A stretch of DNA of 64,000 bases, taken from Anaerostipes hadrus ATCC 29173 = JCM 17467 (GTDB taxonomy: Bacteria > Bacillota > Clostridia > Lachnospirales > Lachnospiraceae). Positions within the stretch are counted from its first letter, which is position 1. Every line of letters begins with the position of its first letter. The notes below the pieces were generated by a model. That model made no database searches and had not been told where the DNA came from. It worked only from the letters and a program-made list of their open reading frames with translations. The stretch is from assembly GCF_030296915.1 (NCBI RefSeq), contig NZ_AP028031.1, forward strand, positions 1,793,501-1,857,500. Reading direction: 5' to 3'. The position numbers were made by a program, and so were the translations under genes. Of the stretch, positions 17,228 through 64,000 are shown piece after piece.

Positions 17228-17298
17228 CACTAACGTTAAAAACTTTGGGTTTTGGGTTTTTGACAAAATATGTTCGAAGGGAGTTTTACAGAATTTAA

Positions 17299-17470
17299 GC
17301 GCCATGCACCTTCCTGATACGGAAACAGACCGATGAGGGTCTGATAGGAAGGTTAACGAGGAGGAAAGTAATCGAAAGATTCGGCGGATGCTTTCCCGCA
17401 GCTCCAGACTACGTGATATACTGAGTAAACCCATGAGTGATCATGAAACAGAGGCAGTATAATCTGGACA
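17299..17470 (+). ncRNA. glmS ribozyme (glucosamine-6-phosphate riboswitch)
   Basis: The leader contains the invariant glmS ribozyme pieces in order: AAGCGCC at the cleavage site (cleavage expected before G17299), GGTTAACGAGGAGGAAAG, ATCGAAAGATTCGGCGG, and TGCTTTCCCGCAGCTC. P1/P2 are formed by ACCTTCC/GGAAGGT, and a P2a-type hairpin CAGACC/GGTCTG lies between. Binding of glucosamine-6-phosphate triggers self-cleavage and destabilises the mRNA, giving feedback control of glmS. The 3' limit (P3-P4 region) is approximate. This region would otherwise look like an N-terminal extension of the glmS frame. Confidence 0.95.
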
Positions 17471-17577
17471 AAACCGCATATGATTTAGAAAAAGAAAACA
17501 AAAGATTTATTTGGAAGTTTTTTACATATCTATACTTCCTTTTATTTTCTTTGCGCAATTTTAAGGAGATTTATATT

Positions 17578-40871: not shown

Positions 40872-41963
40872 ATGAAATTAGGAATCGTTGGATTACCAAA
40901 CGTCGGAAAGAGTACATTATTTAACTCTTTAACAAAAGCCGGTGCTGAATCCGCTAACTATCCATTCTGTACGATCGACCCTAATGTGGGAATCGTAACA
41001 GTTCCAGATGCTCGTGTTGATTATCTGGCTGAGAAATACCATTCAAAGAAAGTGATCCCTGCAGCGATCGAATTCGTTGATATCGCAGGTCTTGTGAAAG
41101 GAGCTTCCAAAGGGGAAGGTCTTGGAAACCAGTTCCTTGCAAATATCCGTGAAGTCGATGCGATCGTTCACGTTGTTCGTTGTTTTGATGATGGAAATAT
41201 CGTTCACGTTGACGGTTCTGTAAACCCACTTCGTGATATCGAAACGATCAACTTCGAGCTGATCTTCTCTGATATCGAAGTGTTAGACCGTCGTATCGCA
41301 AAATCAACAAAAGGATCAAGAAATGATAAATCTCTTGCTCACGAAGTTGAATTCTTATCTAAGGTAAAAGCTCATCTGGAAGATGGAAAGCTTGCTAAGA
41401 CATTCGAAGTCGATGATGAAGAAGATCAGGAAATCCTAAATTCCTGCAACCTGTTAACGATCAAACCAGTGATCTTTGCTGCAAACGTTAACGAAGATGA
41501 ACTTGCTGGAGAAGATAATGATTATGTAAAAGCTGTCCGTGAGTATGCTGCAGACGTTGATGCGAAAGTATTCGTTGTATGTGCTCAGATTGAACAGGAA
41601 ATCTCTGAATTAGATGATGATGAGAAGAAAGAATTCTTAGAGGATCTTGGATTAGAAGAATCTGGTCTTGAAAAACTGATCTCTGCCAGCTACTCTCTTC
41701 TTGGACTGATCAGTTTCTTAACTTCCGGAGAAGACGAGACACGTGCTTGGACGATCAAAGAAGGTACAAAGGCTCCTCAGGCTGCTGGTAAGATCCATAC
41801 AGACTTTGAGCGTGGATTTATCTGTGCTGAAGTTGTTTCTTTTGAAGATTTGAAGGAGTATGGTACGATGCAGGCTTGTAAGGAGAAAGGGCTTGTACGT
41901 CAGGAAGGAAAAGAATATGTTGTTAAAGATGGAGATATTATTGTATTCCGCTTTAATGTTTAA
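40872..41963 (+). CDS. ychF: Obg-family GTPase/ATPase YchF
   Basis: A 363-residue P-loop NTPase of the Obg/YchF group. G1 is [12 protein letters not shown] at residue 6, G3 [14 protein letters not shown] near 70, and a non-canonical G4 (AANVNEDE) explains its ATP preference in characterised members. The C-terminal TGS domain is [26 protein letters not shown] and later [10 protein letters not shown]. Standard length. Universal ribosome- or redox-linked regulator. GAAAGGAAA precedes the start. No simple terminator follows; the long palindromic element begins 18 bases after the stop. Confidence 0.96.
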
Positions 41964-41981
41964 TTTATAGTTTCTTTACCA

Positions 41982-42238
41982 TAGACTTTGAGTATATAAG
42001 ATATCATAACAATCAAATAGTTCCCGTCCACAACACGCGTTTTATTCATCATTTTTGACCGATCGCTGATTCGCCGACATTCCTTGTATAACTCGCTTAT
42101 GGAAGTCCAAAATGACTTCCATATCGCTCAGACAATACACCATGTCGGCTGCGAATCGGTCAAAAATAATGATAAAATGCTAATCGTTGTGGACGGGAAC
42201 TATTTGATTGTTATGATATCTTACATACTTGAAGTTTA
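41982..42238. repeat. Long palindromic element, copy A (unrecognised family)
   Basis: The 257-base element folds on itself end to end. Termini TAGACTTTGAGTATAT and CATACTTGAAGTTTA are roughly complementary. An outer stem of 37 perfect base pairs follows (41998-42034 with 42184-42222). A partly paired segment then leads to a conserved inner core with CGCTGATTCGCCGAC, TTCCTTGTATAACTCGC, GCTCAGACAATACACCA and CGGCTGCGAATC. The apex is a separate hairpin ATGGAAGTC/GACTTCCAT. A second copy is at 62968-63218 with the same core and termini but wholly different outer arms. It lies between convergent genes. It has no coding potential that I credit. Function is unknown. Confidence 0.85.
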
Positions 42239-42312
42239 TTGGAAAGAACTATTGAATAATAAAATGTGTTGGTTATATCACAACTGTTTCCCTAAAACTA
42301 ATACTGTCCTCT

Positions 42313-60948: not shown

Positions 60949-62949
60949 ATGGCAGAAACAAAGGGAACTCTTTCCATTAACAGCGATAATATTTTCCCAA
61001 TCATTAAGAAATGGCTTTATTCCGATCACGATATTTTCTTCCGTGAATTAATCTCTAACGGATGTGATGCCATCACAAAATTAAAGAAATTAGATATGAT
61101 GGGAGAATACAATTTCCCAGAAGGACATAAAAACAAAGTTGAAGTTATCCTTGATCCTGAGAAGAAAACTTTAAAATTCATCGATACTGGTCTTGGTATG
61201 ACTGCTGATGAAGTTGAAAAATACATCACTCAGATTGCATTTTCTGGTGCAACTCAGTTCTTAGAACAGTACAAAGACAAAACAGAAGGTGACCAGATCA
61301 TCGGACATTTTGGTCTTGGTTTCTATTCTGCATTTATGGTAGCGGACGAAGTTACGATTGACACTCTTTCTTATAAAGAAGGAGCAGAACCTGTTCACTG
61401 GACTTGTGATGGTGGTACAGAATACACAATGGCAACAGGTACAAAAGAAACGGTTGGTACAGAGATCACTTTATTCTTAAATGAAGAAAGCACAGAATTC
61501 GCAAATGAATACCGTGCAAGAGAGATCATCGAGAAATACTGTTCTTTCATGCCAACAGAGATTTTCTTATCTGTAGAAGGTGCCGAACAAGAATTTGAGA
61601 CAATCCCAGAAGATCAGGTAAAAGACGATGATGTCGTTGTAGAACACATCCATGAAGATGCAAAAACTGAAGAAAAAGAAAACGAAGACGGTACAAAAGA
61701 AACTATAGAAGTTTCCCCTGCAAAAGATCTTGTTAAGATCAATAAACGGCCTGTTTCTTTAAGTGATACACATCCTCTTTGGAATAAACGTCCAAATGAA
61801 TGTACTGATGAAGAATACAAAAACTTCTATCACAAAGTCTTCCATGACTTTAAAGAACCATTATTCTGGATCCACCTAAACATGGATTACCCATTTAACT
61901 TAAAAGGTATCCTTTACTTCCCTCAGATCAATACAGAATATGATTCTATCGAAGGAACAATTAAATTATATAACAATCAGGTATTTATCGCCGATAACAT
62001 CAAAGAAGTCATTCCTGAATTCTTAATGTTATTAAAAGGTGTGATCGATTGTCCTGACCTTCCACTGAACGTATCAAGAAGTGCTCTTCAGAACGATGGA
62101 TTCGTGAAGAAAATTTCTGATTACATCACAAAGAAAGTTGCTGATAAGTTAACTGGTATGTGCAAGACAGACCGTGAATCTTATGAAAAATACTGGGATG
62201 ATATCAGTCCATTTATCAAATTTGGATTCATCCGTGACCAGAAATTCGCAGATAAGATCAAAGATTACATCTTATTTAAGAATATGGAACATAAATATGT
62301 AACATTAAGCGACCTGGTTCCAGCTCCTGCAAACGATGATGATGTGACAACTTTATACTATATCACAGATGAAGTTCAGCAAAGCCAGTATATCAATATG
62401 TTCAAAGAACAGGATATGGATGCTGTCATTTTAAATCATAACATTGATTCTGCATTTATCACACAGATCGAACAGCAGAATCAGCATATCAAATTTAAAC
62501 GTATCGATGCGGATGTCGAAGATGCCCTTAAAGAAGATGTAGATGAAAAAGAATTAGATGAAATCAAGACTTCTTTAACTGACCTGTTTAGAAAGACTTT
62601 AAACAAAGAAAACCTTGAAGTTCACGTTGAAAAATTAAAAGATGCAAAGATTTCTTCTATCATCACTTTATCTGAAGAAAGCAGACGTATGCAGGATATG
62701 ATGAAGATGTATGCAATGCCTGGTATGGACCCTAATATGTTTGGTGCTCCTGCACAGGTTCTGACTCTAAATGCAAATAATACACTTGTGAAATATCTGT
62801 TTGAGCATGGAGATGCCCAAAATGCAAAGATTATTTGCGAACAGCTGTATGATCTTGCCATGTTAAGTCATACAACATTAGCTCCTGAAGAAATGACAAA
62901 ATTTGTTCAGAGAAGTAATGAGATTATGGAAATGATCACGAAATTTTAA
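60949..62949 (+). CDS. htpG: Hsp90-family chaperone HtpG
   Basis: A 666-residue ATP-dependent chaperone. The GHKL ATPase domain begins FRELISNGCDAITKLKK near residue 32 (ELISN-x-x-DA motif), with DTGLGMTADEV near 85 and GHFGLGFYSAFMV near 120. The middle and C-terminal dimerisation domains follow. An acidic-lysine-rich insertion (EDAKTEEKENEDGTKETIEV) near residue 240 resembles the charged linker of eukaryotic Hsp90 and makes the protein about 30 residues longer than E. coli HtpG. AAAGGAG precedes the ATG. Control is by the CIRCE site upstream. Confidence 0.96.
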   Translation: MAETKGTLSINSDNIFPIIKKWLYSDHDIFFRELISNGCDAITKLKKLDMMGEYNFPEGHKNKVEVILDPEKKTLKFIDTGLGMTADEVEKYITQIAFSGATQFLEQYKDKTEGDQIIGHFGLGFYSAFMVADEVTIDTLSYKEGAEPVHWTCDGGTEYTMATGTKETVGTEITLFLNEESTEFANEYRAREIIEKYCSFMPTEIFLSVEGAEQEFETIPEDQVKDDDVVVEHIHEDAKTEEKENEDGTKETIEVSPAKDLVKINKRPVSLSDTHPLWNKRPNECTDEEYKNFYHKVFHDFKEPLFWIHLNMDYPFNLKGILYFPQINTEYDSIEGTIKLYNNQVFIADNIKEVIPEFLMLLKGVIDCPDLPLNVSRSALQNDGFVKKISDYITKKVADKLTGMCKTDRESYEKYWDDISPFIKFGFIRDQKFADKIKDYILFKNMEHKYVTLSDLVPAPANDDDVTTLYYITDEVQQSQYINMFKEQDMDAVILNHNIDSAFITQIEQQNQHIKFKRIDADVEDALKEDVDEKELDEIKTSLTDLFRKTLNKENLEVHVEKLKDAKISSIITLSEESRRMQDMMKMYAMPGMDPNMFGAPAQVLTLNANNTLVKYLFEHGDAQNAKIICEQLYDLAMLSHTTLAPEEMTKFVQRSNEIMEMITKF

Positions 62950-62967
62950 TTTGTAGTTGGCCAACTG

Positions 62968-63218
62968 TAGATTTTGAGTATATGATAAAAAATAAATAAA
63001 CGATCGGAAGAGCAGCTAGAGAATTTTTCTCACGTTTTTTACAGATCGCTGATCCGCCGGCTTTCCTTGCGTAACTCGCCTTCAATGATATTCAAACCAG
63101 AACTCTTTGAAGCTCAAACAACGCACCAAGCCGGCTGCGAATCCGTAAAAAACGTGGCAAAATTCTAATGCTGCTCTTCCGATCGTTTATTTATTTTTTA
63201 TCATATACCAGAAGTCTA
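62968..63218. repeat. Long palindromic element, copy B (unrecognised family)
   Basis: This 251-base element has the same architecture as copy A. Termini TAGATTTTGAGTATAT and ATATACCAGAAGTCTA form the ends. A perfect 38-pair outer stem follows, unrelated in sequence to that of copy A. The conserved core has CGCTGATCCGCCGGC, TTCCTTGCGTAACTCGC, GCTCAAACAACGCACCA and CGGCTGCGAATC, and the apical hairpin is CTTCAA/TTGAAG. The inner TGCGT/ACGCA helix corresponds to TGTAT/ATACA in copy A, so two base pairs have changed on both strands together. It begins 18 bases after the htpG stop and faces a convergent gene. Confidence 0.85.
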
Positions 63219-63388
63219 AAGTGTGGACAATTACAAGATTGAAAAACTTAAGTGGGTATGTATGTTAAACGGTATTGATTTCTAATCTATAAATGGTTCC
63301 TTCTTCACTCAGAAGAACATAAATTCTATGTGGCTGGAATTTTTTTGCTGGTGGTGCTGGGTAATAAGCATTTATAGCATACAAACAG

Positions 63389-63868: not shown

Positions 63869-63904
63869 AAGAATCCCTCCTAAAATTAATTAGGCAAAGA
63901 ATGG

Positions 63905-63985
63905 ACAACCCGGAGGGGCAGGTTACTTACCCTATTTACATAGGACGGCCGGGCTACCTACCGGCTCTGGTACATAAATGATTGT
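63905..63985 (-). ncRNA. yjdF-motif riboswitch
   Basis: The leader of yjdF, read on the minus strand, contains AGAGCCGGTAGGTAGCCCGG, CCGTCCTATG, GGTAAGTAACCTGCCCCTCC and GGGTTG in the order expected for the yjdF RNA, a complex pseudoknotted aptamer. AGGAGGG before the ATG follows within 30 bases, so ligand binding would expose or hide it. Limits are approximate. The call rests on recalled motif order and the downstream gene. Confidence 0.8.
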
Positions 63986-64000
63986 ACGTTGCGTTTTTAT

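Follow-up and report, generated by a model that had tools for sequence, protein, structure and literature searches.

MITEs, among them ERIC, RUP and Correia elements, are short, dispersed, non-coding inverted repeats, and integron attC sites are hairpins located directly after a stop codon, with a variable stem that holds conserved parts. The palindromic repeats described here resemble both in some traits. Like MITEs, they are short, non-coding and dispersed (49 copies), with inverted ends, and like attC sites, they form hairpins directly 3' of stop codons in which a variable stem carries conserved parts. What sets them apart from MITEs is that two palindromes face each other. Compared with attC sites, they are much longer, form facing pairs between genes and hold a different conserved sequence.

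REP/BIME repeats, and REPINs with their RAYT transposases, are the subject of PMC2817692 and PMC3733652. They are oriented intergenic palindromes that occur in many copies and in inverted pairs, as do the repeats reported here. Contrary to the REP and REPIN hairpins of 20–40 bp with a GTAG tag, the hairpins of this family measure about 250–300 nt (about ten times longer), bear variable arms around a different core and show GTAG at some left ends only. Both their ends and their core are conserved. No RAYT was found nearby, and none of the Y1 genes examined was flanked by the repeats.

The closest mechanism is replication template switching at quasipalindromes, the subject of PMC7202029. Homogenisation of the arms and inversion of the spacer by this process have been described in yeast (PMC8604942), and the same process has been described for RNA hairpins (PMC8794818). 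As far as the available parts of these two papers extend, they share with our case the homogenised arms, the inverted spacer and the perfect stems without G·U intermediates. However, the cases published there are mutations that arose in genes, in reporters or in genes for RNA, whereas the long palindromes described here lie between genes, form a repeat family and have locus-specific, near-perfect arms. The family is placed among the dispersed palindromic repeats, and the evolutionary mode proposed for it is known in mechanism but, within the literature searched, new as a maker of a repeat family's private arms.

Two Related Palindromes with Different Outer Arms

The window, that is, the whole stretch of 64,000 nucleotides analysed from Anaerostipes hadrus ATCC 29173, contains two palindromes, A and B, which the initial annotation had described as members of one family with a common core and wholly different outer stems. 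Both are real and related. One covariance model scores their cores at 102.6 (A) and 102.5 bits (B). Their parts are the following:

40872..41963, + strand: coding sequence upstream of A, from the open reading frame list, with its TAA stop (41961-41963) abutting A; from its sequence we take it to be a YchF-like GTPase
41964..42262, + strand: whole palindromic element A, with its imperfect outer flanks counted in and its ends approximate (RNAfold among the basis)
41972-42034/42186-42248: arms of A, 63 nt, 90% complementary
41998..42034, + strand: left outer arm of A, 37 nt, perfect
42186..42222, + strand: right outer arm of A, reverse complement of the left arm
42041..42063, + strand: inner stem of A, left side (partner 42155-42177)
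42064..42157, + strand: conserved core of A, from covariance model R1, with three internal loops (TGATYC/T; TTCCT/CCA; AACTC/TCARACA)
62944..63255, + strand: palindromic element copy B (ends approximate)
62947-62949: TAA stop of the upstream gene, inside the left end of B
62964-63027/63159-63222: arms of B, 64 nt, 88% complementary
62980..63016, + strand: left outer arm of B
63170..63206, + strand: right outer arm of B
63047..63143, + strand: conserved core of B, from the covariance model
63256..63278, + strand: box (GTGTGTATGTTAAACGGTATTGG-like), found 3' of the palindrome in many copies (on the basis of 15 copies)

Each palindrome holds a perfect outer block of 37 nt, an inverted repeat that far exceeds a chance origin. 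Between A and B these blocks bear no similarity by eye, in agreement with the initial claim. The Rfam search of the window also located a glmS ribozyme (17287-17471) and a yjdF (azaaromatic) riboswitch (63884-63997).

A Large Family in the Source Genome

The search with a covariance model of the core that the initial annotation had proposed was carried out in the source genome and its relatives. The model was built on 13 copies, in which 98.7% of the cells in the core stems are paired and 12 of the 18 pairs have changed on both sides. In the source genome (G000, 2.80 Mb) it found 49 full-core copies at E < 1e-10, together with three half copies, A and B being ordinary members, 2 of the 49. The three core loops of A are kept across the family, with each strand opposite its partner as listed, and the stems between them vary as pairs. 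Outside the core, going outwards, lie the inner stem, a further conserved asymmetric loop and the outer arms.

A and B belong to different subfamilies. A has outer arms of its own, and its nearest relative, at 711581, has the inner stem in common with it but not the outer arm (by eye). The arm type of B, in turn, occurs in 13 copies of the source genome, six of them identical to the consensus in both arms and seven with 1–6 changed positions, and a related version occurs in seven more. The idea that each copy has private arms therefore holds for A but not for B within this genome, where the sharing of the same arms by many copies, which the initial annotation had named as evidence against its reading, is what was found.

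Many copies have a paired layout, read in 15 of them: the 23-nt box lies 3' of the palindrome, and after a spacer comes the box in inverted orientation and then another palindrome that faces the first one. The core of this other palindrome is either like that of its partner or of another kind, which has about 20 places in the genome; 20 facing pairs with 203–399 bp between the matched cores were counted. Rearranged copies are also present. At 2461605 the core is flipped relative to its flanks, and the partner of 219796 keeps its arms with the core absent (both by eye). The palindrome at G000:C1:2605905-2606119 is chimeric, with a left half of the A/B type and a right part of the other palindrome type.

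Conserved Cores and Divergent Arms in a Second Genus

The separation between core and arms was measured in G025, from another genus of the same family as the source, where 25 of 30 loci were used and five were dropped because the locus was too short. Among these 25 full-length loci, the identity between copies is 0.887 for cores and 0.665 for arms, against 0.627 (sd 0.037) for shuffled arms, and core and arm identity are not correlated (0.08). The extreme case is the pair L161 and L162, with cores 98.8% and arms 58% identical. Within copies, on the other hand, 22 of the 25 have arms paired over 51–82 nt in which no more than 4 positions mismatch. The other three are L169, which is non-palindromic there, L166, paired over 35 nt only, and L187, with 64 of 73 positions paired. 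Cores alike, arms near background between copies and near-perfect arms within most of them make up a pattern as extreme as had been guessed from A and B.

Arms That Change Alike on Both Sides

G061, a congener and sister species of G025, holds at least 40 copies (40 of 91 candidates were scored in G061 and 40 of 104 in G025). Alignment of the flanks gave 12 orthologous loci. One of them, L172/L214, lies in a region that is 98–99% identical between the two genomes, compared with about 85–94% for the other flanks, and is a recent transfer or contamination; it was left out of the ortholog counts.

Several of the orthologous pairs have arms whose homology is plain and whose differences are alike on both sides. 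Counts were made in 48-nt windows of seven palindromes. In L186/L228, each arm has 14 substitutions and one indel, with no mismatch within either copy, and L194/L230 has 8 differences, again with no mismatch within either copy. L198/L215 has 5 (left) and 6 (right) substitutions plus 2 indels, with 0 and 1 mismatches, and its second pair has 7 and 6 differences with 2 and 1 mismatches. Similar figures were obtained for L174/L219 (12 and 12 differences; 0 and 4 mismatches) and L191/L240 (6 and 6 differences, 1–2 indels; 1 and 0 mismatches). In L202/L212 the mirror symmetry is broken in G061, with 6 mismatches and 3 indels, the right arm of L212 having lost its mirror.

By identity over 55 nt of arm, only 4 of 14 orthologous comparisons, which include some loci counted with two possible partners, surpass all paralogs in both genomes, and one surpasses only the G025 paralogs; the remaining arms fall short of this or are unrelated. 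L193/L217 and L196/L218 are orthologous loci with unrelated arms. When cores are compared, 12 of the 14 cases put a G025 paralog nearer than the ortholog, one is a tie and one is the reverse; in this comparison the best of some 40 paralogs gains an advantage from numbers.

The G061 sites of another six G025 loci were inspected by eye: two have no copy there, two show remnants, one keeps the arm without the core and one is a core-less perfect hairpin with other arms. L246 and L251 of G061 show, by eye, arms without a core where G025 holds the full element. Such core-less arms, and the flipped core at 2461605, are what template switching or deletion of a hairpin should leave behind.

These comparisons also bear on the proposal that each insertion receives new arms through a copying mechanism that makes a hairpin. 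The nearly identical cores and dissimilar arms of L161/L162 are what such a mechanism would produce. Nevertheless, the L161 arm and its counterpart in the sister species differ at 1 of 41 nt (by eye), and the arm is therefore older than the species split; the B arm type is common to 13 copies; and L217/L218, at different loci, are 0.839 (84%) identical in the arm and 0.940 (94%) in the core. A similar arm identity, 0.855, is found between L165 and L190, also different loci. Arm replacement at each insertion is accordingly very unlikely. Of the two mechanisms originally offered, homogenisation of each palindrome by template switching is the one supported by the mirrored changes in orthologs of two species, whereas arm replacement is not favoured, given the arms common to different loci.

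The concern that the palindromes are an assembly artefact arises from the draft state of G025 and G061, with about 130 and 60 contigs. The source genome, however, is a single contig and also has mirrored changes, and the orthologous loci are common to two separate genomes, so an artefact is hardly credible.

Arm Copying and Selection for Pairing

Near-perfect arms could also be the stems of a structured 3'-UTR RNA, in which selection for pairing maintains the stem through ordinary compensatory mutation. G·U should then be borne much better than A·C. The residual mismatches within copies were classified by type. Mismatches amount to 28/1909 positions in G025 and 45/1911 in G061 (40 of 42 copies in each, two being dropped as non-palindromic in the segment compared), and to 27/1626 in the outer arms of G000 (47 of 52 copies, five being dropped as IS-broken or chimeric). 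G·T mismatches number 10, 18 and 8 in G025, G061 and G000 (36), and A·C mismatches 11, 18 and 9 (38). G·U is thus not favoured, which makes selection on an RNA stem unlikely. Taken together, the even transition mismatches and the mirrored indels point to copying at the DNA level, of one arm onto the other.

Changes within arm types of the source genome were counted in the same sense. Type T1b has 17 mirrored changes, none changed differently and 2 in one arm, and type T1 has 7 mirrored, 2 changed differently and 6 in one arm. Types T2–T4 have 19, 19 and 4 mirrored changes and 25, 20 and 24 one-arm changes, the latter inflated by frame shifts and by the conserved loop in an ungapped count; for this reason, T1, T1b and the ortholog comparison are relied on.

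In favour of RNA stems are the sense orientation of the copies after stop codons and the covariation in the core stems. Contrary to their expectations, there is no preference for G·U, indels are mirrored, and up to 14 mirrored changes have accumulated with no unpaired intermediate remaining, which leaves pairing selection quite improbable as the keeper of the arms. Both hallmarks of palindromes homogenised by template switching, mirrored changes without wobble intermediates and inversion of the spacer, are present in the family.

Our preferred explanation, which we consider likely, is that the repeats are old and mobile-looking and that template switching, or conversion from arm to arm, homogenises their arms in place. 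Copies would have spread together with their arms, and each palindrome would later have provided its own repair template, with one arm copied onto the other, either through template switching in replication or through conversion between the arms. A mutation in one arm would then be erased or turned into a mirrored pair as a result of this repair, and arms could drift freely yet stay near-perfect. Function, or exchange among copies, would preserve the core and the internal loops, and over time each locus would gain its own perfect arms around the common core. Several results tell against this explanation: few orthologous arms surpass all paralogs in both genomes, two orthologous loci have unrelated arms, L212 has lost its mirror, type T1 has nearly as many one-arm as mirrored changes (6 and 7), the stop-codon bias weakens in G025 and G061, and neither a driver enzyme nor a clean empty site with a duplicated target emerged. 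The likeness of the cores, compared with the saturated arms, may reflect function, exchange among copies or both, and the homogenising route may be recombinational conversion or replicative template switching.

Placement at Gene Ends

Of the 49 copies in the source genome, 39 directly follow a stop codon in the sense orientation. On the opposite side the figure is 1 of 49, and for random positions drawn from these loci it is 62 of 1960 (3.2%). A copy was counted when an open frame of 100 codons or more, oriented like the copy, had its stop 83–114 nt 5' of the core, and three IS-split partial matches were dropped from the count. The bias is weaker in G025 (15/42 against 6/42 on the other side) and in G061 (17/42 against 6/42), both in a wider window of 40–130 nt. 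The stops that precede copies in the source genome include those of genes which we take to be rpoC, carB and ychF.

This placement raises the question of whether the element is mainly a transcription terminator or 3'-end processing element, copied by recombination and not transposable. It would be consistent with the copies after the presumed rpoC, carB and ychF, with nine congeners that have an ordinary terminator-like hairpin 3' of rpoC (by eye), where the source genome has a facing pair, and with some G137 copies beside apparent rRNA/tRNA genes (by eye). However, a simple scan for an intrinsic terminator (G+C stem, short loop, T run) gave no match in A or B, the facing pairs and patchy distribution look mobile, and the bias towards stop codons is weaker in G025 and G061; we thus regard this role as possible but rather unlikely. 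Under the preferred explanation, too, the element probably replaces a terminator or 3'-UTR hairpin at gene 3' ends.

Inserted Elements and Candidate Mobilising Functions

In five G025/G061 loci with two close copies, no open frame longer than 81 codons, and no autonomous element, lies between the copies, and no parental autonomous transposon was seen in the few loci examined. Among the G025/G061 orthologous sites compared, none is a clean empty site with a target duplication; the orthologous sites that lack a copy (L247, L248) also lack a homologous right flank.

Y1 transposases were considered as the driver and are not supported, as no clear association was found, and no mobilising enzyme was found. 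In the source genome, the five Y1 places listed, out of seven, are each more than 30 kb from any copy, and two Y1 genes that were checked have no core motif within about 2.3 kb. By hand count, Y1 is present in 19 of the 27 genomes with the motif and in 64 of the 118 that lack it, and G008 has 10 motifs and no Y1.

The repeats are themselves targets of insertion. L133, L113 and L123 (G000:C1 near 242115, 673846 and 1148343) hold three copies of one IS, each with a 398-aa transposase, inserted at the same point of the core, immediately before the CTC of the AACTC loop. The copy in L113 matches PF02371 and PF01548, and is of the IS110 type. REP palindromes are targeted by IS110-type elements as well, according to the available part of PMC1525189, and resemble this family in being so invaded. 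In L102 (G000:C1:28680), a copy is interrupted in the right half of its core and adjoins a DDE_Tnp_1 transposase gene (439 aa).

Database searches returned no described counterpart. No Rfam family matched the palindromes at gathering score (whole window; L103, L104, L126 and L127), the best model in a lax search of A being a microRNA at 24.5 of 160 bits, and plasmid and phage records gave no match to B. The 15 literature matches listed for the letters of the motif looked like unrelated primer sequences, and nothing matching was found in the available part of PMC2267715, on stem-loop families in bacterial genomes. The view that no such element had been described holds as far as Rfam, the plasmid and phage records (for B) and the titles and abstract openings of the literature searched extend, but the homogenising mechanism had already been published.

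Distribution among Relatives

With the covariance model, no copy was found in 10 congeners of the source, and 5 of 61 genomes, the source included, match at E <= 0.01, G039 being among them by score alone. The shorter apical motif AACTCGC-N0-14-GCTCARACA occurs in 27 of 145 relatives, five of them congeners, compared with one match for the reversed pattern. Among the places listed, there are at least six facing pairs 370–540 bp apart and one at 1.6 kb (by eye). A 1.6-kb facing pair in G145 flanks a gene that is presumably aminopeptidase-like. The motif lies 3' of ychF in two (G004, G008) of the eight congeners where the gene end was found, and some of its loci follow stop codons or adjoin apparent rRNA/tRNA genes (by eye). 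At L289–L292, on G137 contig ends, motif hairpins adjoin apparent rRNA/tRNA genes (by eye) near contig breaks.

A core pattern run over genome contigs gave 28 stretches, all of which failed an automated check for the core's second half. Three of them were read: L049, from an uncultured Lachnospiraceae, was judged a real relative, and the other two, like the sole viral match of the first pattern, were judged chance. The matches listed for the short motif lie in many viral contigs of mixed nature, which were excluded from the distribution. One such contig (L339, IMGVR_UViG_2908087089_000002) has the apical motif four times at a spacing of about 3.1 kb, and this array is a tandem unit, possibly an unrelated use of the motif.

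Implications

A broader and more speculative proposal is that of an order-wide hairpin family, recognised by the shape of its core and its loops, which would move between gene ends, replacing both the terminators and the stop contexts, with template switching freeing its arm sequence and an enzyme that recognises the hairpin driving it. We consider this unlikely, in part due to the weaker stop-codon bias in G025 and G061.

For arms homogenised in situ, the dozens of loci in two sister species amount to a natural experiment on bacterial arm-to-arm copying, so that genomes alone allow one to measure how often template switching occurs, how long its tracts are and where its limits lie. Perfect covariation alone is not proof of RNA structure, and the comparison of G·T with A·C mismatches provides a test that separates RNA pairing from arm copying. 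If the element is mobile, its placement at stop codons would mean that it reshapes the 3' ends of transcripts.
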